Positions 49,695 to 61,428 of a stretch of DNA of 64,000 nucleotides are shown here, in pieces (within the stretch, counting starts at the first letter, position 1; each line of letters begins with the position of its first letter). The notes beneath the pieces are model-generated. The model ran no database searches and was not told the DNA's origin. It saw only the letters and a program-made list of their open reading frames with translations. The stretch lies in contig JANQOW010000067.1 in NCBI GenBank assembly GCA_028285595.1, positions 1 to 64,000 on the forward strand, given 5' to 3'. The position numbers and the translations under genes are program-made. This DNA comes from Hyphomicrobiales bacterium (GTDB lineage Bacteria > Pseudomonadota > Alphaproteobacteria > Rhizobiales > CAJQND01).

Positions 49695-50429
49695 TCAGCG
49701 GAAACCTGAGGCTGTCATGAAGTTCTCATAGAGCTTCTTGGAGTCTGCCTTCATTCCGGTCATGCGTTCGTCGGCTTCGGCCTTGAAGCGTTCAAGTGCG
49801 CCGGCGCCTGCCGCCTTTTCCAGAGCGTCAGCATATTCAGGGATTGCGCCCCACATGGGGACGGTCGTCTCGTCGATCTCCACATGGTACTGGATCGAAA
49901 ATGCTTTCGGCCCCCAGCTCATGGCCTGCACCCGGCATGCCGGAGTGGAGACCAGAATGTCAGCGCCCTCGGGGGCCGCTAAGACTTCCGCGCTGTGCCA
50001 TTGCAGGCACCAGATTGTTTCCGGGAAGCCTTCAAGGAACGGGCTGGTTTTGCCGTTATCGGTCAGATGCACCGGCATGATGCCAATCTCCGGTTCGGCG
50101 GCCGGACCCACTTTGCCGCCCAGCGCTTCAGCCAGAAGCTGGTGACCCAGGCACAGGCCCATATAAGGCATCTTCAGGTCCACCACGGCACGGCGGATGG
50201 CGGCCTTCTCTGTTTTAAGCCAGGGGTGGGCGTCTTCCTGCCAGGTGTCCATGGGCCCGCCCATGACCCATAGGGCGTCGTACCCCTCCAGCTCAGGAAT
50301 GGTCTCGCCCTCGTCGAGCTCAACGGCGTCCCACTCAATGCCGTCGGCTGCGAAGTACTCTCGGAACGTGCCCGGGTGCTCGCAGGCGATGTGTTGGAAG
50401 ACAAGGAATTTGAGGGGTTTGATGCTCAC
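49695..50429 (-). CDS. Class I glutamine amidotransferase (GATase1)
   Basis: GMPYMGLCLGHQLLAEALGGKV; VMGGPMDTWQ; FSIQYHVE. Confidence 0.9.
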   Translation of the reverse strand: MSIKPLKFLVFQHIACEHPGTFREYFAADGIEWDAVELDEGETIPELEGYDALWVMGGPMDTWQEDAHPWLKTEKAAIRRAVVDLKMPYMGLCLGHQLLAEALGGKVGPAAEPEIGIMPVHLTDNGKTSPFLEGFPETIWCLQWHSAEVLAAPEGADILVSTPACRVQAMSWGPKAFSIQYHVEIDETTVPMWGAIPEYADALEKAAGAGALERFKAEADERMTGMKADSKKLYENFMTASGFR

Positions 50430-50445
50430 AAGAGGCCTCCGCTAA

Positions 50446-50541
50446 CGTCATCCCGGAATTTGCGTCAGCAAATATCCGGGACCTAGGGCCGAGCGCTCAG
50501 AGTGTGCAGGCTCTGGGTCCCCGCTTTCGCGGGGATGACGG
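50446..50541. repeat. Composite palindromic repeat locus R5 (B then A, reverse order)
   Basis: cgtcatcccggaatttgcgtcagcaaatatccgggacct...ctgggtccccgctttcgcggggatgacgg. Confidence 0.85.
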
Positions 50542-50547
50542 TTTGGT

Positions 50548-50958
50548 TCAAAACTTCCTATAGGCCTTGTTGAGCTGAACCATCGGATGGTCCGGCGACA
50601 TCTGAAACTTGATCAGCATCTCGCGGGCCATCATGTCCCGGTCCTGCTGATTGTTCGGAAGTTTGATATCGTCCGGGATCGCCAGCCAGCCGTTGATGTT
50701 GCGGTCAAACACGGCGGGCTTGCCGTCGTCATAACCCATATGCACATCTTCCAGCCAGTTGAGATCATCCCAGCCCATGAACTCCATATAGCCCTTCAGG
50801 AAGGGCGTCAGGCGGTCATAGTCGGGCACCAGGTTCACATCGTAGCGGTAGCCGATGTGTTGGCCGAGTTCGCGCTCACGGTCGGAGTCCAGTCCATCGC
50901 CTTTGATGAACTGGTCCACATCCTTGATTTCTGAGCCTTTATAGCTTGATCCTGCCAT
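50548..50958 (-). CDS. Hypothetical protein in the glutamate-synthase-like operon
   Basis: 136-aa ORF, acidic, YDRLTPFLKGYMEFMGWDDLNWLEDVHMGY; starts 19 bp after the upstream stop. Confidence 0.6.
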   Translation of the reverse strand: MAGSSYKGSEIKDVDQFIKGDGLDSDRERELGQHIGYRYDVNLVPDYDRLTPFLKGYMEFMGWDDLNWLEDVHMGYDDGKPAVFDRNINGWLAIPDDIKLPNNQQDRDMMAREMLIKFQMSPDHPMVQLNKAYRKF

Positions 50959-50976
50959 CGGTTCGTCCTCTCAAGA

Positions 50977-52362
50977 TCAAATGTGGTGATAGTCTTCAAC
51001 GCCGACCGTGTGGTCGGTGCCGGCCAACGGCACTTGGGCCATGGCGGAGGCTTCCATGGTGAGCGCGGCAAGATCTTCCGGCTCCAGGGAATGGACGTTG
51101 GTTTTACCGCAAGCGCGGGCCATCATCTGTGCTTCGATGGTCAGCGTGTGCAGGAAGTTGTAAACCCGCTCAGCGGCTTCATCAGGGTTCAGGCGCTTAC
51201 GCAACTCCGGGTCTTGCGTGGCCACGCCCACCGGGCAACGCCCTGTGTGGCAGTGGTAACAAGAGCCTGCAGGCACTCCCATTTCCTTCTCATAGTCGGC
51301 TTCGGGAATGTCCTTGTTGCAGTTCATCGCCATCATGGCCGAGTGACCGATGGCAATGGCATCAGCGCCCAAGGCAAGGGCCTTGGCCACGTCGCCGCCG
51401 TTGCGAATGCCGCCGGCATAGACCAGCGAGATCTCGCCGCGCTTGCCGATATCATCGATCGCACGCCGCGCCTGGCGGATGGCGGCCATGCCGGGCACAC
51501 CGGTTTCTTCGGTGGCCAGGTGCGGGCCCGCCCCGGTGGAGCCTTCCATGCCGTCGATGTAGATCGAATCCGGATCGGTCTTGGCGGCCATGCGAACGTC
51601 ATCATAAACACGCGCAGCGCCCAGCTTGAGCTGGATCGGGATCTGCCAGTCGGTGGCTTCGCGGATCTCTTGGATCTTCAGAGCCAGATCGTCCGGGCCC
51701 AGCCAGTCCGGGTGACGGGCTGGCGAGCGCTGGTCGATGCCGGCCGGCAGCGAGCGCATCTCGGCCACCTGGTCGGTCACCTTCTGGCCCATCAAGTGGC
51801 CGCCCAGACCCACCTTACAACCCTGGCCGATGAAGAACTCACAGCCGTCTGCAAGGCGCAGGTGGTGCGGGTTGAAGCCATAGCGGGACTGAATGTTCTG
51901 GTAGAACCACTTGGACGAATAGCGCCGCTCGTCGGGGATCATGCCGCCTTCGCCAGAACAGGTTGCGGTGCCGGCCATGGTGGCGCCGCGGGCAAGGGCG
52001 GTTTTGGCTTCAAACGACAAGGCGCCGAAGCTCATCCCTGTGATGTAGATCGGAATGTCCAGCTCAAGCGGACGCTTGGCACGGGGGCCGATCACGGTCT
52101 TGGTCAGGCACTTTTCGCGGTAACCTTCGATCACGAAGCGCGTCAAGGTGCCGGGGAGGAATGTCAGTTCATCCCAGTGAGGGATCTTCTTGAAGAGTGA
52201 GAAGCCGCGCATCCGGTAGCGGCCCAATTCGGACTTGATATGGATGTCATCCATGACCTGCTGGTTGAAGATCCAGCTTCTGCCCAGGATGGTCGTGTCG
52301 CGTCCGTTTCCGTTCTTTTTCGACTTCTTCTTTTTCTTCTTCTTTTTCTCGTCTTTAGCCAT
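50977..52362 (-). CDS. FMN-binding glutamate synthase family protein (MgsC/GlxD-like)
   Basis: GMSFGALSFEAKTALARGATMAGTATCSGEGG; IYIDGMEGSTGAGP; CYHCHTGRCPVGVATQDPELR. Confidence 0.9.
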   Translation of the reverse strand: MAKDEKKKKKKKKSKKNGNGRDTTILGRSWIFNQQVMDDIHIKSELGRYRMRGFSLFKKIPHWDELTFLPGTLTRFVIEGYREKCLTKTVIGPRAKRPLELDIPIYITGMSFGALSFEAKTALARGATMAGTATCSGEGGMIPDERRYSSKWFYQNIQSRYGFNPHHLRLADGCEFFIGQGCKVGLGGHLMGQKVTDQVAEMRSLPAGIDQRSPARHPDWLGPDDLALKIQEIREATDWQIPIQLKLGAARVYDDVRMAAKTDPDSIYIDGMEGSTGAGPHLATEETGVPGMAAIRQARRAIDDIGKRGEISLVYAGGIRNGGDVAKALALGADAIAIGHSAMMAMNCNKDIPEADYEKEMGVPAGSCYHCHTGRCPVGVATQDPELRKRLNPDEAAERVYNFLHTLTIEAQMMARACGKTNVHSLEPEDLAALTMEASAMAQVPLAGTDHTVGVEDYHHI

Positions 52363-52400
52363 GTTTCAGGTCTCCCAGGCCTCCTCAGAGGCGTGAATGG

Positions 52401-53246
52401 TTAGAGAACAATCTTCTTCTCGGTGGGCTCTAGGTTGTCGTAGTTCCAGAGCTGTTTACCGGCGACGATCTTGGTGAAGTGGTCCACGCCTTTGTCAGGC
52501 ATCAGCTCATATTGAGTGAGCTTGCGGGTGAGCCAGGCTTTGTCCAGATCCGTCAGCTCGCCCGGCACCGCGTCAACGCCGAGATCCTGGATCTCGCCGC
52601 CCACATAGATGGTGCCGTCATACATGCTGTCGCCCAGGTTCTTGCCGGCGTTGCCGCAAATGAGCATGCGTCCACGTTGCATCATGAAGCCGGAGAAAGC
52701 GCCCGTGTCGCCGCCGACGATGATGGAACCGCCCTTCATGTCGATCCCGGTGCGCGAGCCCACAGAGCCCTTGCAGACCAGATCGCCGCCGCGCAAGGCC
52801 GCGCCGAAGGTGGAGCCGGCGTTCTTTTCGATCACCACGGTACCGGCCATCATGTTTTCAGCACACGACCAGCCAACCCGGCCCGAGATGCGCACGTTTG
52901 GGCCGTCAAGAAGACCCACGCCGAAGTAGCCGAGGCTGCCTTCGATGATCAGGTTCAACCGGTTCAAGATGCCCACAGCGATGGAGTGCTTGGCGCCGGG
53001 GTTCTTGATGACAATGGTGCCATGGCCCTCGCTCATCAACTCGCGGATGCGGGTGTTGACCTCAGTGGCTTCCATGTTGTCGGCATTGATCTCGGCGCGC
53101 TTGTTGAAGTCCACATCAAACGCATCGTAGTAGCCGTAGCCGCCCTCGTTCTCGAGGGTGAACATGGTTTTGATGTCCCGGCCGGTGAGCGGCTCGGTGT
53201 GCATTCCCATTTCATGGGAAACGCTGTCTTGGTTCAGGCCTTCCAT
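52401..53246 (-). CDS. Glutamate synthase GXGXG-domain protein (MgsB/GlxC-like)
   Basis: IEGSLGYFGVGLLDGPNVRISGRVGWSCAENMMAGTVVIEKNAGSTFGAALRGGDLVCKG beta-helix. Confidence 0.88.
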   Translation of the reverse strand: MEGLNQDSVSHEMGMHTEPLTGRDIKTMFTLENEGGYGYYDAFDVDFNKRAEINADNMEATEVNTRIRELMSEGHGTIVIKNPGAKHSIAVGILNRLNLIIEGSLGYFGVGLLDGPNVRISGRVGWSCAENMMAGTVVIEKNAGSTFGAALRGGDLVCKGSVGSRTGIDMKGGSIIVGGDTGAFSGFMMQRGRMLICGNAGKNLGDSMYDGTIYVGGEIQDLGVDAVPGELTDLDKAWLTRKLTQYELMPDKGVDHFTKIVAGKQLWNYDNLEPTEKKIVL

Positions 53247-54169
53247 ACCCGGACCTCCTCATCATAAGGGTCATACGTATCGATTTCGTGGGGGATCACC
53301 GCGCGGATGGCCACCTCTTCAGAGGCGAGCGCCACCAGGTCGTCGGCTTCGTAAAGCACCATCGGCTTGGCGGCCATGGTGTCTTTGGCCATGCCCAGCT
53401 CATCGCGGGTGGTGACCAGATAGGTGAACACGCCGTCGATCTCTTCGATCGACATGCGCAGGCTCTCTTCCAACGAAATGCCCTTCTCAAGGTTCACGGC
53501 CGTGTAAACGGCGAGAAGCTCTGAGTCACAGTTGGAGACAAAGCGCTGACCGCTGCGTTCCAGGTGGCGGCGCATCAGCCAATAGTTGGTGATCTGGCCG
53601 TTATGCACCACGGCAATGTCGTTGTAGGGGTAGGCCCAGTACGGGTGGGCGGAGCGGATGTCTACGTCCGATTCCGTTGCCATCCGCGTGTGGCCGATGG
53701 CGTGGGTGCCTTCGAACTTGCCGAGGCCATATTGGTCGGACACCACGGTGGCATCGCCCAGGTCCTTGATCAGTTCAAGAGCGCTGCCGATCGAGAGGAT
53801 CTCAGCGCCGTTAATGTCTTCGATCCGGTCCGCAATCTGCTTCATGTCACCGTCAAAGGCGATCCGGTAGCGGTAGGCATATTCAGTCGCCTCCTCTTCC
53901 TTCTTCACCTTCACGCCCACTTCTTTCAGGAGCGCGTCCACTTTGGCGCGGCGGTCTTTGATCTCCTGGTGAATGTGAAAGCCCGTGGAGAGCTCTTCCT
54001 GCTCGGCCACTTTGAAGCGCATCACATATTCATCCTTGCCCGGTTTGCCGTAAATGGCAAAGCCGGTTGAATCGGGCCCACGGTGTTTGAGTGCCTGCAG
54101 CATGGCGGTCATTTCCCCGCCCACATTGCTGGTGCCCTTGCGGTGGATAAGCCCTGCTATTCCACACAT
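53234..54169 (-). CDS. Class II glutamine amidotransferase (MgsA/GlxB-like)
   Basis: MCGIAGLIHRKG N-terminal Cys; GHTRMATESDVDIRSAHPYW; NCDSELLAVY. Confidence 0.9.
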   Translation of the reverse strand: MCGIAGLIHRKGTSNVGGEMTAMLQALKHRGPDSTGFAIYGKPGKDEYVMRFKVAEQEELSTGFHIHQEIKDRRAKVDALLKEVGVKVKKEEEATEYAYRYRIAFDGDMKQIADRIEDINGAEILSIGSALELIKDLGDATVVSDQYGLGKFEGTHAIGHTRMATESDVDIRSAHPYWAYPYNDIAVVHNGQITNYWLMRRHLERSGQRFVSNCDSELLAVYTAVNLEKGISLEESLRMSIEEIDGVFTYLVTTRDELGMAKDTMAAKPMVLYEADDLVALASEEVAIRAVIPHEIDTYDPYDEEVRVWKA

Positions 54170-54263
54170 TTTTCTGCTCTCCCTTTAGAAATTGGGTTGC
54201 ACGGTCCTGGGGCGGGCGGCGCCATCGCGCCATCCGCCCAAACTTTTGTCCGCAATGCCGCGC

Positions 54264-55742
54264 TTAAGGCAGGCAGTGCAGGTAGGTTTCCTGATCCCAG
54301 TCGGTCACGGTCGACATGAACCGTGCCCATTCATCCGATTTGTACTCATGGTAGAGGCGGTACATCTCGCCCGGCATGCCGCGCTGGACCACCTCATCCT
54401 GCTCCAAGGCTTCCAAAGCTTCGCCCAGAGACATGGGCAGCTTCTTCACCTGCTTGCCGGCTTCCATGGCTTCGTAGATGTTGCGCTCTTCCGGCTCGCC
54501 CGGATCCAGGTTGTTCTCAATGCCATCGTCGGCGGCCGCCAGAATGGTGGAGCCCATAATGTAGGGGTTCACCATGGAGTCCACCGAACGGTACTCAAAG
54601 CGGCCCGGCGCGGAGACGCGCAGACCCGTGGTGCGGTTCTGGAAGCCCCAGTCGGCGAAGACCGGTGCCCAGAAGCCGGTGTCCCAAAGGCGGCGGTAGG
54701 AATTCACCGTGGAACAGCCGATTGCGGTCAGCGCACGCAGGTGGTGCACGATGCCGCCAATGGCTTTGAGACCCTGCTTGCCCGGCATTTGCGGATCGTC
54801 CGTGTCGGGCATGAAGGTGTTGTCGCCACCTTCGATGTACATGTAGTTGTCTTTCATGCCCGGCAGCTTTTTGGGATCGTTGCCGGTCTTGTGGAAGACA
54901 TCCTTACCGCCGCGCCAGAGCGACATGTTGTGGTGACAACCTGAGGCGGAGACGCCCATGAACGGCTTGGTCATGAAGCAGGCAATGAGGTTGAACTCAC
55001 GGGCCACCTGGGCACAGATCTGCCGGTAGGTGGTGAGCCGGTCTGCATTTCGCAGAACGTCGTCGAACATCCAGTTCAATTCGAGCTGGCCCGGTGCGTC
55101 CTCATGGTCGCCCTGGATCATGTCGAGACCCATGGCGCGGGAATACTCCATCACCTTCATGTAAACCGGACGTAGGCTCTCAAACTGGTCAATGTGGTAG
55201 CAGAAGGGTTCAGAGAAGCCCCCATTGGGCTTGCCGTTCTCGTCCTTCTTGAGCCACATCATTTCCGGCTCGGTGCCCATGCGCAGGTGAAGGCCTTTGT
55301 GCTTCTTTTGGAATTCCTCGTGCAGACGGCGCAGGTTGCCGCGGCCGTCCGAGGTCAGATAACCACCTGGGTTTTCCTTCTCTTCGCGGTTGCGGAACAA
55401 GGTGCAGTAGAACCGGGCGATGCGCTTGTCCCAAGGCAGCTGCATCATGGTTTCCGGCTCGGGGATGCCGACCAACTCGGCGGCTTCAGGTCCGTAACCC
55501 AGATATTCGCCGGCGCGGTTGGTGAACAGGTTCATGGTGGCGCCATAGACGAGTTGGAAGCCCTTCTTGGCGACGCTTTCCCAGTGATCTGCGGGGATCC
55601 CCTTGCCCATGATCTTGCCGGTTACAGAGACGAACTGCAGGTAGAGATACTCAATCCCCAACTCGTCGATCTTTTTGCGGACCTCTTTGACCTTCTCCGC
55701 ACGGCCCTTCTGTTTTACGAAATTTTCGATGTCCATCGGCAT
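54264..55742 (-). CDS. Glutamine synthetase family protein (GlnT / gamma-glutamylamide synthetase-like)
   Basis: MGTEPEMMWLK, QGDHEDAPGQLELNW, GCHHNMSLW, NSYRRLWDTGFWAPVFADWGFQNRTTGLRV. Confidence 0.88.
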   Translation of the reverse strand: MPMDIENFVKQKGRAEKVKEVRKKIDELGIEYLYLQFVSVTGKIMGKGIPADHWESVAKKGFQLVYGATMNLFTNRAGEYLGYGPEAAELVGIPEPETMMQLPWDKRIARFYCTLFRNREEKENPGGYLTSDGRGNLRRLHEEFQKKHKGLHLRMGTEPEMMWLKKDENGKPNGGFSEPFCYHIDQFESLRPVYMKVMEYSRAMGLDMIQGDHEDAPGQLELNWMFDDVLRNADRLTTYRQICAQVAREFNLIACFMTKPFMGVSASGCHHNMSLWRGGKDVFHKTGNDPKKLPGMKDNYMYIEGGDNTFMPDTDDPQMPGKQGLKAIGGIVHHLRALTAIGCSTVNSYRRLWDTGFWAPVFADWGFQNRTTGLRVSAPGRFEYRSVDSMVNPYIMGSTILAAADDGIENNLDPGEPEERNIYEAMEAGKQVKKLPMSLGEALEALEQDEVVQRGMPGEMYRLYHEYKSDEWARFMSTVTDWDQETYLHCLP

Positions 55743-55763: not shown

Positions 55764-55824
55764 ATTGGTTTTTTGATTGGCCTTAAATGGCGCTAAGGCC
55801 GGAGCATACCAATTATGGACCAAT
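55764..55824. promoter_or_regulatory. ATTGGY/ACCAAT repeat cluster upstream of the GS-like gene
   Basis: ATTGGT 55764, ATTGGC 55776, ACCAAT 55808 and 55819. Confidence 0.6.
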
Positions 55825-56125
55825 TTTGACAACTGGCAAGACTATTTTTAGGGCGGAATTTTTTCACCTCGCCCCGATAGAATGCTTCAATCGAAGCAAT
55901 GAGCAGGCGGGTGCTGTCAGTTCTTTGCCGTTTACCGGCAGAAATATTAGGTTTTTGTATTTGGGAAGCGGATCACAGGCAGGCGCTGAACCGCCAGATC
56001 CTGCGGGTGTTCGGTCAGGTGAAATGGTTACAACGCGGACCAATCGGCGCCCTTTCTGTGGTCAAAACAGAACCTTCCCTCGACGCGGTGCGTAATCATA
56101 GGTCATAATGTAAGAAGAAAAACAT

Positions 56126-56162
56126 ACCAATTTTATACCAATTATGACCAATAAGGACCAAT
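56126..56162. promoter_or_regulatory. Four-copy ACCAAT direct-repeat array with 11/10/10-bp periodicity over the gntR start
   Basis: ACCAAT at 56126, 56137, 56147, 56157; last copy overlaps the first ATG (56161). Confidence 0.72.
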
Positions 56163-56913
56163 GAAGGACCCCATGGCGAAGAAAGCTGAGTTCGATGTGA
56201 ACGGGTTGGCAGAGCATATGCCGGCCGACCTTTCGCCAGGGCGTGGGGCGGGGGCCATCACGGCGCGTCTGCGCAATGCGATCGAAACGGGCGTTTATTC
56301 CGATGGTGACCAGCTTCCGCCAGAGCGCCAACTGGCCACCGCCTTTGATGCGGCGCGCAGCACCATCCGCAAGGCGCTGAACCAACTTGAGCAAGCCGGG
56401 TTGGTGGAGCGGCGGATCGGCAGTGGCACCTATGTCTCCTACTCAGGACCCATTTCTGAGCAGGGAGATGAGATGATTGACCTGGTGAGCCCGTTGCAGC
56501 TCATCGAGGCGCGCTTTGCCATTGAACCCTACATGACCCGCCAAGCCGCGCTTCATGCCACCAAGCGTGATTTGGAGAACATTGAGGCGATCTTGGTGCG
56601 CCTTGAGGGAGCGCGCAATGATGAACCCTCGTTCTCTCGCTGGGACAGTGAGTTCCACCAGCAGTTGGCACGCTGTTCTCGGAACCCGCTCATTGTGCGG
56701 CTCTATCAGAACATCAACGAGGTGCGCTCCCATGCACAGTGGCGCGCCATGCGCCGCACGATCCTCTCTCCTGAACAGATTGACGTCTATAACGCGCAGC
56801 ATCGCCAGATCTACGATGCGCTCTGTGAGCGCGATCTGAAAACTGCGTCAAAGCGCATTGAGGCGCATCTGGAAAAGGCTCGGCAAGATCTCATCGGGGC
56901 TGAAAGCGGATAG
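56161..56913 (+). CDS. FadR-subfamily GntR transcriptional regulator
   Basis: LRNAIETGVYSDGDQLPPERQLATAFDAARSTIRKALNQLEQAGLVERRIGSGTYV plus FCD domain. Confidence 0.92.
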   Translation: MKDPMAKKAEFDVNGLAEHMPADLSPGRGAGAITARLRNAIETGVYSDGDQLPPERQLATAFDAARSTIRKALNQLEQAGLVERRIGSGTYVSYSGPISEQGDEMIDLVSPLQLIEARFAIEPYMTRQAALHATKRDLENIEAILVRLEGARNDEPSFSRWDSEFHQQLARCSRNPLIVRLYQNINEVRSHAQWRAMRRTILSPEQIDVYNAQHRQIYDALCERDLKTASKRIEAHLEKARQDLIGAESG

Positions 56914-56935
56914 GCGAGCAGAGGCGCATTCAATC

Positions 56936-57799
56936 ATGAGCCCGGTGGTACTTGGCAGCCTGGCGGCCTTATTCTGGGGCGTGCACGATCTGGTGGCCGG
57001 CATCTCCAGCCGCAAACTTGGCCATATGGTGGTCGTGCTCGGGGTGACCGTCTTCGGGCTCTTGGCCATTACGCTATGGATTGGGCTGACCTCTGAGTTT
57101 CCCAATATGGCGCGTACTGATGTTTGGGTGCCCTTGGCTGCAGGGGTTGGCTATGCGTGCGCGACCCTTTTCCTTTTTGCGTCCTTTGCCGCCGGGCCGT
57201 TTTCGATTGCCGCACCGGTCGGAGGGTCTTATCCGCTCACATCTATGATGATCGCCGCGCTGCTCGGTAACCCCACGAGCGGACTGCAGCTTGTCGCTGC
57301 TTTGACCGTTATTGCCGGCGTCGTGATTGTTGCCGTCACCGAACCCGGCGGGGACGGCGCGCAGACTTACGACAAACAGGCCATACGGCGCACCATCATC
57401 TGTGCCGGGCTTGCTCATATCAGCTTTGCCGTCGCCATCGCGCTTGGCCAACAAGCCGCTGTGCTCTTCGGCGCGGTGGAAGGTACATGGATCAGCCGCC
57501 TCGCGGGTGCCCTCTTGATCTTGTGCTTGTTCTTTACCGTCAACACCCGCCGCGCCCTTCCGTTCAAATGGATTGCGCCAGTGGTTGCGATCGGGTGTTT
57601 GGACGCGGCGGCCATCAGCCTGCTCAACGCCGCCGGCAACACCGATCAGCCGCAAATTGCGGCTGTGGCTGGGTCTGCCTTTGGGGTGGTGACGATTCTG
57701 CTTGCCCGGATTATCTTGAAAGAGCAAATCTCTCCCAAACGTTGGCTGGGGATTGCGCTGACCTTCGTCGGCGTGGCGGTCCTATCGGCTCTGGAGTGA
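56936..57799 (+). CDS. EamA/DMT-family transporter
   Basis: About ten TM segments; LGSLAALFWGVHDLVAG, terminal KEQISPKRWLGIALTFVGVAVLS. Confidence 0.88.
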   Translation: MSPVVLGSLAALFWGVHDLVAGISSRKLGHMVVVLGVTVFGLLAITLWIGLTSEFPNMARTDVWVPLAAGVGYACATLFLFASFAAGPFSIAAPVGGSYPLTSMMIAALLGNPTSGLQLVAALTVIAGVVIVAVTEPGGDGAQTYDKQAIRRTIICAGLAHISFAVAIALGQQAAVLFGAVEGTWISRLAGALLILCLFFTVNTRRALPFKWIAPVVAIGCLDAAAISLLNAAGNTDQPQIAAVAGSAFGVVTILLARIILKEQISPKRWLGIALTFVGVAVLSALE

Positions 57800-57803
57800 C
57801 CTG

Positions 57804-58634
57804 ATGATTGAGCTCACCGAGACGCACAAACACACGTTTCGTGAAGACGGCTTTGCCATCGTGGAAGGTGTGCTGGACCGCGAAACCATCGAGGCGGCGC
57901 GCGAGAAGTTTCCGCTTCTGTTCAAAGGTCAGTTTGAGACGGGGCTGCAGCCAGATGAGTGGAACTGGCATGAAGGCCGTGACCGCGATACGCTCACCCG
58001 GCAGATCTGTAATGGCTGGAAGGCGGACCGGACGATTGCCTCCATCGTTCTGCGCGAGGACATTGGACGGGCATGTGCTGAGCTGCGAGGCTGGCCGGGC
58101 TCGCGGATCAACCAAGACAATGTGATCTGGAAACCTCCAGGCTCAAAACCCTTAGGGTTTCACCAAGATGACAGCTACCAGGACTGGATTGTTCCCAACG
58201 AGATGATGACCTGTTGGATCACGTTGGATGACACCACGGCCACGGGTGGCACGATCGAATATGTGCGCGGTTCTCACCTATGGCCCTTGGCGCCGCCGAT
58301 TGGGCAGTTTCATGCGCCTGACGATGCGCTGGCCGATCTGAGGCCCGCGGCAGCCGGTGCGGGTGTGGAGCCTGAGATCGTTCCAATTGAGGTTCCTGCC
58401 GGTTCGGCCGTGTTCCACCACGGGCGCACATGGCATGGCTCGCGCGACAATAAAGGTGAGGCGCCCCGGCGCTCGGTGGTGGCCCATTGTATGTCATGCG
58501 ATGTGGCTCATCATCCCTCGAACGTACACCCGGTCTACAGCCGATATCGAAGGCAAGACGATCTGTCGATGGATGAGAGCTTCTTTCCCATCCTCTGGCG
58601 CCAAGATGGCTATCGTACGGCCTGGCTGCCTTAG
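57804..58634 (+). CDS. Phytanoyl-CoA dioxygenase (PhyH) family Fe(II)/2-oxoglutarate oxygenase
   Basis: GFHQDDSYQDWI (HxD), GTIEYVRGSH, HHGRTWHGSRDN. Confidence 0.9.
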   Translation: MIELTETHKHTFREDGFAIVEGVLDRETIEAAREKFPLLFKGQFETGLQPDEWNWHEGRDRDTLTRQICNGWKADRTIASIVLREDIGRACAELRGWPGSRINQDNVIWKPPGSKPLGFHQDDSYQDWIVPNEMMTCWITLDDTTATGGTIEYVRGSHLWPLAPPIGQFHAPDDALADLRPAAAGAGVEPEIVPIEVPAGSAVFHHGRTWHGSRDNKGEAPRRSVVAHCMSCDVAHHPSNVHPVYSRYRRQDDLSMDESFFPILWRQDGYRTAWLP

Positions 58635-58659: not shown

Positions 58660-59346
58660 TTGCCCAAGCATATCGGAATTGTGGCCTGCTCAGCAGAAGG
58701 TGCATCGCTTTGCTACCGCACGATCTGTGTGGAGGGAGCGGAGGTTCTGGGACCTCATGCCCATCCTGAGGTCACCATGCACACGCCCTCGCTTGCCGAC
58801 TATGTCGCGTGCCTGGATGCGGGCGATTGGGACGGTGTGGGGGCATTGATGCTCGCTTCGGCGGAGAAGCTGGCGGCGGCCGGCGCCGATTTCCTCATCT
58901 GCCCGGACAACACCATCCATCAGGCGTTCGGCCCTGTGGAGGCGCACTCTCCGTTGCCGTGGCTGCATATTGTGGACGGTGTCGCCGCGGCCGCCGAAGA
59001 GCAAGGCTTCCGCAAGCTGGCGCTTACTGGAACGCAATGGTTGGTAGACGGCCCGGTCTATCCTGATAAGCTGGCGGCGCGTGGTCTGGAGTGCGTGCGG
59101 CCCAGTGCTGAGGAACGGGCTGAGATGAACCGGATCATCATGCAAGAACTGGTCAACAGCACCTTCAAACCCGAGAGCACGGCCTACTTTCAAACAGCCA
59201 TTGAGGGATTGAAGAGCCAAGGATGTGATGCCGTCATATTGGGCTGCACCGAGATCCCGTTGATCATAAATGACGATAACTCAGCTTTGCCGACCCTGGA
59301 TTCTACCCGGCTTCTCGCCCGCGCCGCCTTACAGCACGCGCTCTAG
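58660..59346 (+). CDS. Aspartate/glutamate racemase family protein
   Basis: IGIVACSAEGASLCYRTI, CPDNTIHQ, VILGCTEIPLII; TTG start. Confidence 0.87.
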   Translation: MPKHIGIVACSAEGASLCYRTICVEGAEVLGPHAHPEVTMHTPSLADYVACLDAGDWDGVGALMLASAEKLAAAGADFLICPDNTIHQAFGPVEAHSPLPWLHIVDGVAAAAEEQGFRKLALTGTQWLVDGPVYPDKLAARGLECVRPSAEERAEMNRIIMQELVNSTFKPESTAYFQTAIEGLKSQGCDAVILGCTEIPLIINDDNSALPTLDSTRLLARAALQHAL

Positions 59347-60278
59347 TAGCCCCGGGCCCGGTTCACCTCGTGCAGGAGGGGTGAACCGTCTAATAAACGC
59401 CGATAGTTTTCCGCCACATCCTTGAGTGCGTCGCCCAAATGCCAGCCCGACACGTGGGGGGTCAGCGTCACTTTGGGATGGGTCCAAAGTGGGCTGTCCG
59501 GCGGCAAGGGTTCGCTGTTCACCACATCGAGCACCACCCCGCCCACATGATCGGCGTCCAGGTTGTTCATGAGGTCGCTTTCGATCACCAGATCGCCGCG
59601 GCCCACATTGATCAGGACGGAGCCCTTCTTCATGGACGCCAGAAACTCCCGGTTCACCAGCCCGCGGGTCTCCAGCGTCGAGGGTAACACGCAGGCCACG
59701 TAGTCGCATTCCTTGAGCATTGGCAGCAGTGTATCGGCGCCATGGCGGCATTCGATGCCTTCAATGTACTTGGGCGAGCGGCTGTAGCCGATGACCTTGA
59801 AGCCCACGGCCGCAATCATCTTTGCCGTGCGGCTTCCGATGTGGCCAAGCCCAAGCACACCCACAACGGTATCCGGCGTGCTGCGTGGCGCGATTGGCTG
59901 CCAGACGCGCTCTGCCTGGCGTGCATCGTGAAACTTCATGTTGCGTTGGTCGCGCAGAATATAGGCCAGGCAGAACTCGGCCATTTCCCGGGCCGGGGCA
60001 TCGGGCTTGAGGCGGGTGATTTTCACATGGCCTGGAAGGTCCGGATTGCCAACCATCGTCTCAACACCCGCTCCCAATTTCTGAACGAGTTTGAGATGCG
60101 GCAGCTTGGCCGCCAGGTCCGGGCGCAGCCGGGTCACGGCCGCCATCTCAATTTCGACCGGGTCGCCCATATTCTCGTAAACCCGCACATCCGCATCCGG
60201 AAGCATGGACAAAACCTCTCTGGCGAGAGCCTCATCGGTCATCCATTCCGGCATATTTACATCGATCAACAAGGCCAT
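59343..60278 (-). CDS. D-2-hydroxyacid dehydrogenase (GhrA-like)
   Basis: VVGVLGLGHIGSRTAKMIAAVGFKVIGYSRS; VGRGDLV; HVSGWH. Confidence 0.9.
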   Translation of the reverse strand: MALLIDVNMPEWMTDEALAREVLSMLPDADVRVYENMGDPVEIEMAAVTRLRPDLAAKLPHLKLVQKLGAGVETMVGNPDLPGHVKITRLKPDAPAREMAEFCLAYILRDQRNMKFHDARQAERVWQPIAPRSTPDTVVGVLGLGHIGSRTAKMIAAVGFKVIGYSRSPKYIEGIECRHGADTLLPMLKECDYVACVLPSTLETRGLVNREFLASMKKGSVLINVGRGDLVIESDLMNNLDADHVGGVVLDVVNSEPLPPDSPLWTHPKVTLTPHVSGWHLGDALKDVAENYRRLLDGSPLLHEVNRARGY

Positions 60279-60354
60279 GCCGCACCTCTCTCTCAACCGC
60301 AATCTGAGGGACAGTGTTGCTGAGATCAGGTGCCAAGACAAGCTGCAGTTGTGC

Positions 60355-61428
60355 TTATGCAGCCTCTCGAGCGCTCTGAGCTTTGGCTTTGGCAATGGCC
60401 TCACGGGCCATCTGATCGGCCATCTCGCTCGGCGAGGCGTTCTCGTCGTGGGCGCGGCGAAGGATCTTCTCTGTTCTCTCGCCTATGCGCATCACCGCGT
60501 TTAGAACGCGTTCCTTGGTGGCCTGCGGATCGCGCTCGGCTGCCACCGAGATTATCCCGCCTGCGTTGATCACATAGTCCGGCGCATAGGTAATTCCAGA
60601 CACCGCGAGAAGATTGCCATCGGTCTTGGCCGCCAGCTGATTGTTGGCCGCACCGGCCACCACCCTGGCTTTAAGAGAGCCGATGGTGTCAACGTTCAAG
60701 ATGCCGCCCAAAGCACATGGGGCGAGAACATCTGCATCAGCCTTCAGGACGTCTTCGATAGGAACCGGCGTGGCCGAAAACGCTTCAACCGCCCGGTCCG
60801 TGTTCGCGGTGTTAATGTCCGAAACAATCAGCTTCGCGCCGGCCTCGTGGAGCAGATTGCAAAGATGGTAGCCCACATGGCCGATGCCCTGGACGGCGAC
60901 GCGCATGTCTCTCAAATCAGCGGTTCTGAACCGATGCCCAATTGCGGCCTTCATACCTTCAAAGACGCCAAGCGCGGTCACAGGCGAAGGATCTCCGCCG
61001 CGATATCCATCATCCTTCGGAATCCCGCTCACATAGTCGGTGAACTTTGCCACGGAGCGCATGTTCTCAACAGACGTGCCCACGTCTTCTGCCGTGATGT
61101 AACGCCCACCGAGACCGTCCACGACACGGCCATAAGCTTCGAAGAGAGCGTCATCGGCGTTTGATCGGGTCCCACGCATGATCACGGCCTTGCCACCGCC
61201 ATAGGGCAGCTCGGCGAGGGCGTTCTTGTAACTCATGCCTTGGGAGAGGCGCAGGGCATCCGTCAGAGCCTCGCCGTCATCAGCGTAGGTCCACACCCGG
61301 CAGCCACCGAAAGCCGGGCCAAGGGCGGTTGAATGAATGGCGATAAATCCGCGCAGATCCGCCTCAGGCAGGCAGAAGGCGTGAACGGCTTCGTGATTGT
61401 CGAATCCCGGTTGGGAGAAGATGGACAT
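60355..61428 (-). CDS. Glu/Leu/Phe/Val dehydrogenase (leucine dehydrogenase-like)
   Basis: GMSYKNALAELPYGGGKAVI; VAVQGIGHVGYHLCNLLHEAGAKLIVSD; APCALGGILN. Confidence 0.9.
   Translation of the reverse strand: MSIFSQPGFDNHEAVHAFCLPEADLRGFIAIHSTALGPAFGGCRVWTYADDGEALTDALRLSQGMSYKNALAELPYGGGKAVIMRGTRSNADDALFEAYGRVVDGLGGRYITAEDVGTSVENMRSVAKFTDYVSGIPKDDGYRGGDPSPVTALGVFEGMKAAIGHRFRTADLRDMRVAVQGIGHVGYHLCNLLHEAGAKLIVSDINTANTDRAVEAFSATPVPIEDVLKADADVLAPCALGGILNVDTIGSLKARVVAGAANNQLAAKTDGNLLAVSGITYAPDYVINAGGIISVAAERDPQATKERVLNAVMRIGERTEKILRRAHDENASPSEMADQMAREAIAKAKAQSAREAA

Follow-up and report, generated by a model that had tools for sequence, protein, structure and literature searches.

Structure and conservation of the locus

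The stretch of DNA analyzed here (the window, 64,000 nucleotides of contig JANQOW010000067.1 from a Hyphomicrobiales bacterium) carries a minus-strand operon that we interpret as a probable module for the assimilation of dimethylamine (DMA). Five genes form its conserved core: GSL, a glutamine synthetase-like amine ligase of 492 aa (54264..55742, Pfam Gln-synt_C); a class II (Ntn) glutamine amidotransferase (GATase) subunit, GATase2, similar to MgsA/GlxB (53234..54169, Pfam GATase_6/7); a GXGXG subunit similar to MgsB/GlxC (52401..53246, Pfam GXGXG); a flavin mononucleotide (FMN) subunit similar to MgsC/GlxD, with the Cys motif CYHCHTGRCP (50977..52362, Pfam Glu_synthase); and U136, a conserved 136-aa protein without a Pfam family (50548..50958). 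On the same strand lies GATase1, a class I GATase with GLCLGH and HVE motifs in its translation (49695..50429, Pfam GATase). Consecutive genes from GSL through GATase1 are spaced by 94, -13, 38, 18 and 118 nt. The six open reading frames, their strand and their positions agree with the initial annotation, and its family assignments were confirmed by Pfam.

Of 101 homologous loci from Alpha- and Gammaproteobacteria, 90 contain all five genes in the order GSL-GATase2-GXGXG-FMN-U136, and the 11 loci with fewer core genes lie on contigs that end early. Such exact conservation shows that the five-gene arrangement is not due to chance. U136 is the last core gene in all homologous loci compared. GATase1 was found near the core in just 22 of the 101 loci and was rejected as a core member; of the two extra genes that the initial annotation had joined to the operon, U136 is thus a constant component and GATase1 an optional one. 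U136 occurs in 37 of 387 alphaproteobacterial genomes (the same class sample was used for U136, Tdm and Dmm), in 204 of 398 genomes of the Pelagibacterales (SAR11 order), and in at least 594 loci, some of them gammaproteobacterial, of a species-level collection of genomes, with 57-95% identity across classes. No relative of U136 was found in Pfam, NCBIfam or PDB. Its predicted structure is of modest confidence (predicted local distance difference test score, pLDDT, 72.5) and matched no PDB fold.

GSL as a ligase distinct from GmaS

Comparison of GSL with known glutamine synthetase families suggests that it is not GmaS but has GmaS-like chemistry. Against the GSIII/GmaS model TIGR03105, GSL scores 314 bits, under the curated cutoff of 469.6, and the canonical GmaS of the window genome scores 664 bits; the identity between GSL and GmaS is ~30%. 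The scores against the models for PuuA (NF045547, 218 bits, cutoff 650) and GlnA (TIGR00653, 250 bits, cutoff 429) also lie under their cutoffs. The phylogeny that the initial annotation had proposed as a check separates a GSL clade from a GmaS clade, each of them monophyletic (100/100), with a weakly resolved mutual relation. All eight amine-site, catalytic and flap residues of GmaS are kept in GSL (K47, Y182, Q210, D212, E214, E221, N223 and W358; reference residues in RhGmaS K30', Y147, Q175, D177, E179, E186, N188 and flap W300; PMC7948447), and they are invariant in 25 GSLs. Among nine other glutamine synthetase-family proteins of the window genome compared, only GmaS has the full eight-residue set, which the other eight paralogues do not. 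Like GmaS, GSL has Trp at the position of the Glu-flap residue of ammonia-type enzymes, and it has DHED where those enzymes have the HHE motif. Relative to GmaS it carries inserts at residues 70-79, 119-125 and 279-303. The characterized RhGmaS is poor with DMA (Km 16 mM, versus 27 uM for monomethylamine, MMA; PMC7948447), so that GmaS alone would be insufficient for this substrate and a dedicated ligase makes sense.

The synthase-like trio and other known systems

The gene order GATase2-GXGXG-FMN is that of MgsABC. The GATase2 subunit is 32-33% identical to canonical MgsA, with Cys2 and the VHNG motif invariant with MgsA; the GXGXG subunit is ~34% identical to canonical MgsB, and the FMN subunit, which keeps the Cys motif, ~51% identical to canonical MgsC. 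Canonical MgsA, MgsB and MgsC of the window genome and of Pelagibacter HTCC1062 share 48, 57 and 79% identity, whereas the core trio is more distant (33, 34 and 51%) and does not fall close to MgsABC. As a separate observation, canonical MgsC of the window genome (L039:8266-9594) lacks the three Cys of the iron-sulfur motif, which is kept in SAR11 MgsC (L226:15285-16601) and in the core FMN subunit.

The architecture itself is a variant of the known GmaS-MgsABC kind. With the N-methylglutamate pathway (GmaS, MgsABC and MgdABCD) the core shares protein families, complex architecture, amine-site residues and glutamate as carrier; it differs in its separate GSL clade with inserts, in the additional invariant U136 and in a neighboring single-chain flavin adenine dinucleotide (FAD) oxidase, as well as in coexisting with GmaS, being tied to Tdm and being exclusive with Dmm. 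The GlxBCD/GlnT-type clusters of rhizobia and other bacteria likewise combine a glutamine synthetase-like gene with three glutamate synthase-like subunits, but their GATase2 subunit is ~33-34% identical to that of the core, and U136 has no match in the plasmid collection.

Methylamine genes elsewhere in the genome

Canonical mgsABC-gmaS of the window genome lies on contig C62 (L039:6650-10954), two soxBDAG/mgdABCD-like operons on contigs C14 and C85, and tdm on contig C140. Methylamine is therefore already served, and the window operon represents an additional system; its identification as the canonical N-methylglutamate pathway was rejected, since canonical mgsABC-gmaS sits elsewhere in the genome. 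The initial annotation had pointed to the lack of MgdABCD-like genes in the window, and this holds: the matches there, at 22-27%, were confined to an unrelated GcvT/DAO-type gene around 30-32 kb. This lack carries little weight, as the genome has the two soxBDAG/mgdABCD-like operons as well as canonical mgsABC-gmaS. The same annotation held that mgdABCD genes present elsewhere, and induced together on methylamine, would speak for the canonical pathway. MgdABCD-like genes are present, but this does not refute a separate role for the operon, since the canonical route for MMA relies on a gmaS and mgsABC of its own. Its proposal of a related route for another amine is upheld: the operon is GmaS/MgsABC-like, distinct from the canonical set and probably devoted to another amine, and the evidence points to DMA.

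Another glutamate synthase-like set, the third in this genome, is found with a further glutamine synthetase-like gene on contig C122 (L081:8004-11043, L042:7640-12175). It adjoins an aldehyde dehydrogenase and two small proteins that by eye resemble shell proteins of bacterial microcompartments, and it possibly encodes a compartmentalized pathway for glutamylated amines.

Co-occurrence with Tdm, Dmm and GmaS

Among the 387 alphaproteobacterial genomes, the trimethylamine N-oxide (TMAO) demethylase Tdm is present in 36, and the core was found in 28 of the 36 Tdm-positive versus about 10 of the 351 Tdm-negative genomes (p about 3e-27; this and the p-value below ignore phylogeny and are indicative only). 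The 28 genomes comprise 27 identified by U136 plus G173, in which the contig breaks off within the core. For the DMA monooxygenase Dmm, a search with PF11927 was followed by a search for true Dmm, with reductase and DmmD genes as expected neighbors. True Dmm occurs in 9 of the 387 genomes and in none of the 38 core-positive ones, and Dmm with its reductase and DmmD neighbors is present in 5 of the 8 genomes that have Tdm and lack the core (one-sided p 1.5e-4). The sole PF11927 protein of the window genome was rejected as Dmm on account of its 28% identity and the lack of reductase and DmmD neighbors. Among 50 further named core-positive genomes, including Ruegeria arenilitoris, none has Dmm, three of them showing only partial matches of 26-32%; R. 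pomeroyi has Dmm (PMC5520151). Of 37 core-positive genomes, 31 also carry canonical GmaS, so that MMA is covered in them.

Genomic neighborhood

A GntR-type gene neighbors the core in 73 loci and is placed divergently upstream of it in 72. The window copy, on the plus strand (56161..56913, Pfam GntR and FCD), encodes a GntR/FadR-type regulator. On the minus strand, a TTGGTAT repeat is located in the GSL promoter region (55806..55812) and two more upstream of the GntR gene (56124..56141), and AATTGGT-type words are the commonest 8-mers upstream of GSL (31 of 86 loci). Judged by this pattern only, the TTGGTAT repeats are a candidate operator of the GntR regulator.

Other recurrent neighbors encode a 196-aa protein (76 loci), a nitrilase-family protein (50), a DUF1989-GcvT protein matching Tdm (45), a 448-aa DAO-family FAD protein (43), Amt (31), SoxB (20) and Fhs (9), together with a TmoXVW-like ATP-binding cassette transporter of the TMAO type (25, 27 and 18 loci) and a Tmm-like flavin-containing monooxygenase (23); Tmm, Tmo and Tdm were named from their domains, their resemblance to the respective families and their context. 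Roseobacter-like loci are arranged as GATase1, GntR, FAD, core, nitrilase, u196, tmm, tmoXVW and tdm. In most loci the FAD gene immediately precedes GSL, and its product had no NCBIfam match at E 1e-20. The ~196-aa protein (L146:11266-11856; L066:10595-11143) had no Pfam match. Canonical and core-type methylamine clusters also contain, together with Amt, a probably membrane-located protein of 71-74 aa (L226:13270-13494; L187:11591-11806; L117:13676-13894), for which two copies checked had no Pfam match.

Downstream of the GntR gene in the window, the plus strand encodes an EamA-type transporter (56858..57799, Pfam EamA), which only a minority of loci have beside the core, and a PhyH-type Fe(II)/2-oxoglutarate dioxygenase (57804..58634, Pfam PhyH). 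A PhyH gene is also located near the core in L084, L097, L099, L100 and L055. Speculatively, the window dioxygenase could be an oxidative demethylase; as a clean substitute for the FAD oxidase PhyH is unsupported, four PhyH loci belonging to genomes with the FAD gene. Beyond it, the region 58660-61428 encodes an Asp/Glu racemase, a 2-hydroxyacid dehydrogenase and a Glu/Leu-type dehydrogenase (ScyB-like, below cutoff), and possibly represents an unrelated amino-acid pathway.

Proposed pathway for dimethylamine assimilation

Taken together, these data lead us to propose, with a probability of about three in four, that the five core genes form a module for assimilating DMA and constitute a DMA-specific counterpart of the N-methylglutamate pathway of GmaS and MgsABC. 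By analogy with that pathway, GSL would attach DMA to glutamate at its gamma-carboxyl in an ATP-driven reaction, yielding gamma-glutamyl-dimethylamide, and the GATase2/GXGXG/FMN complex would release the amine and move it to the alpha-carbon, yielding N,N-dimethylglutamate; U136 would probably be an accessory subunit of this synthase complex. In most genomes, a neighboring single-chain FAD oxidase (SAR11_1304-like) would next take off one methyl group to give N-methylglutamate, which would be converted to glutamate via the ordinary Mgd step. In the window genome, where the FAD oxidase was not found (best match 29%), a Sox/Mgd complex or the PhyH dioxygenase would be candidates for the last step. 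The sequences themselves establish the gene order, families and active-site residues, the link to Tdm, the exclusion of Dmm, the coexistence with GmaS and the correspondence to SAR11_1305-1309; the substrate, the intermediates and the roles of U136 and of the FAD enzyme are deduced from them.

The module would stand in for DmmDABC downstream of TMAO demethylase. Both would occupy the same position between TMAO demethylase and the oxidation of N-methylglutamate or MMA; the proteins are unrelated, however, and DmmDABC of R. pomeroyi and Methylocella is an NADPH-dependent monooxygenase that yields free MMA, whereas the core would use ATP and glutamate-bound intermediates. The proposed scheme, in which a DAO-family flavoenzyme would strip N-methyl groups from an amino acid oxidatively and one at a time, resembles dimethylglycine/sarcosine demethylation, with the difference that the substrate would be N,N-dimethylglutamate made from DMA. 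No bacterial dimethylglutamate or glutamyl-dimethylamide pathway was found in the open-access full texts searched.

Several observations weigh against this proposal. DMA as the substrate is suggested by genomics, not by biochemistry, and U136 is without an assigned fold, its model being of modest confidence only. The FAD oxidase is present in 31 of the 37 core-positive genomes and absent from six, including the window genome. A homolog with 67% identity is encoded in G160 (L227:8271-9614), which has Dmm and lacks the core, and may have a second role there. About ten core-positive genomes have no detectable Tdm, although they could take up DMA. Three Tdm-positive genomes, G260 as well as G022 and G336 with a divergent Tdm, have neither module. 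The exclusion of Dmm could partly be a lineage effect, and the 50 named genomes had been chosen by U136 similarity.

The core could instead glutamylate another small amine, such as ethylamine, ethanolamine, an N-methyl amino acid or a choline-derived amine, and be merely housed in methylated-amine clusters. The inserts in GSL relative to GmaS, the genomes lacking Tdm and the variable nitrilase, PhyH and EamA neighbors would fit such a role, which nevertheless seems unlikely to us, as the strongest ties of the core (Tdm, Tmm, TmoXVW, Amt and the absence of Dmm) all point to DMA.

Slightly more doubtful is a second, redundant MMA module, that is, a further GmaS-MgsABC set differing in regulation or affinity. 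Although GSL retains the MMA-pocket residues of GmaS and the complex architecture is identical, most core-positive genomes already have canonical GmaS, the streamlined SAR11 retains both systems side by side, and the exclusion of Dmm and the tie to Tdm would be left unexplained. We give comparably little credence to a scheme in which the FAD oxidase acts directly on the gamma-glutamyl-dimethylamide made by GSL, producing gamma-glutamylmethylamide for canonical Mgs while the core synthase complex acts otherwise. The position of the FAD gene immediately upstream of GSL and the gmaS/mgs genes adjoining the core in SAR11 agree with this scheme, but it assigns no role to the invariant synthase-like trio and U136, and some core-positive genomes lack the FAD gene; being a variant in step order of the DMA pathway proposed here, it overlaps with it in confidence. 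An ordinary ammonia-assimilating glutamine synthetase with glutamate synthase, in line with the glnT annotation in SAR11 (PMC5069961), is highly improbable in view of the Trp and DHED replacements and of scores far under the GlnA and GSIII cutoffs.

Implications for SAR11 and marine methylamine metabolism

In the genome of HTCC1062, the U136 gene ends at 1,245,731, and in a published table the intergenic region that separates SAR11_1309 (hypothetical) from SAR11_1310 (amt) spans 1,245,732-1,245,856 (PMC2704228); this exact coordinate match identifies U136 as SAR11_1309. The core corresponds to SAR11_1305-1309, located between Tdm/FAD oxidase (1303/1304) and amt/mgsABC/gmaS (1310-1316): TmoX is 1302, Tdm 1303, the FAD protein 1304, GSL 1305, GATase2/GXGXG/FMN 1306-1308 (numbers given by gene order), U136 1309, amt 1310, mgsABC 1313-1315 and gmaS 1316. 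Previously, SAR11_1304 was named monomeric sarcosine oxidase (PMC3160333) and SAR11_1305 glnT, and the mRNAs of SAR11_1302 and SAR11_1305 shifted together ~fivefold under sulfur limitation (PMC5069961).

SAR11 are the most abundant bacteria of the ocean. TMAO as sole nitrogen source supports growth of HTCC1062 without dmmDABC, for which an unknown isoenzyme converting DMA to MMA was posited (PMC8918994). Lidbury et al. (2017) found genes for the conversion of TMAO to DMA in 20-25% of surface bacteria and DMA monooxygenase to be far rarer and in no SAR11, from which they postulated a bottleneck at DMA feeding marine aerosols (PMC5520151). On balance, we favor the view that SAR11_1304-1309 and their homologs are the ocean's missing DMA route, ATP-dependent, proceeding via gamma-glutamyl-dimethylamide and N,N-dimethylglutamate, carried by about half of the sampled SAR11-order genomes and replacing the monooxygenase. 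Neither the DMA assignment nor SAR11_1304-1309 as the missing step appeared in the literature searched, which covered few subscription journals, so that a prior description is possible. TMAO and methylamines belong to the marine organic nitrogen pool. If the proposed role is true, the DMA gap in HTCC1062 would close, the inference of a DMA bottleneck would need revision, and SAR11_1305 would become a biomarker.

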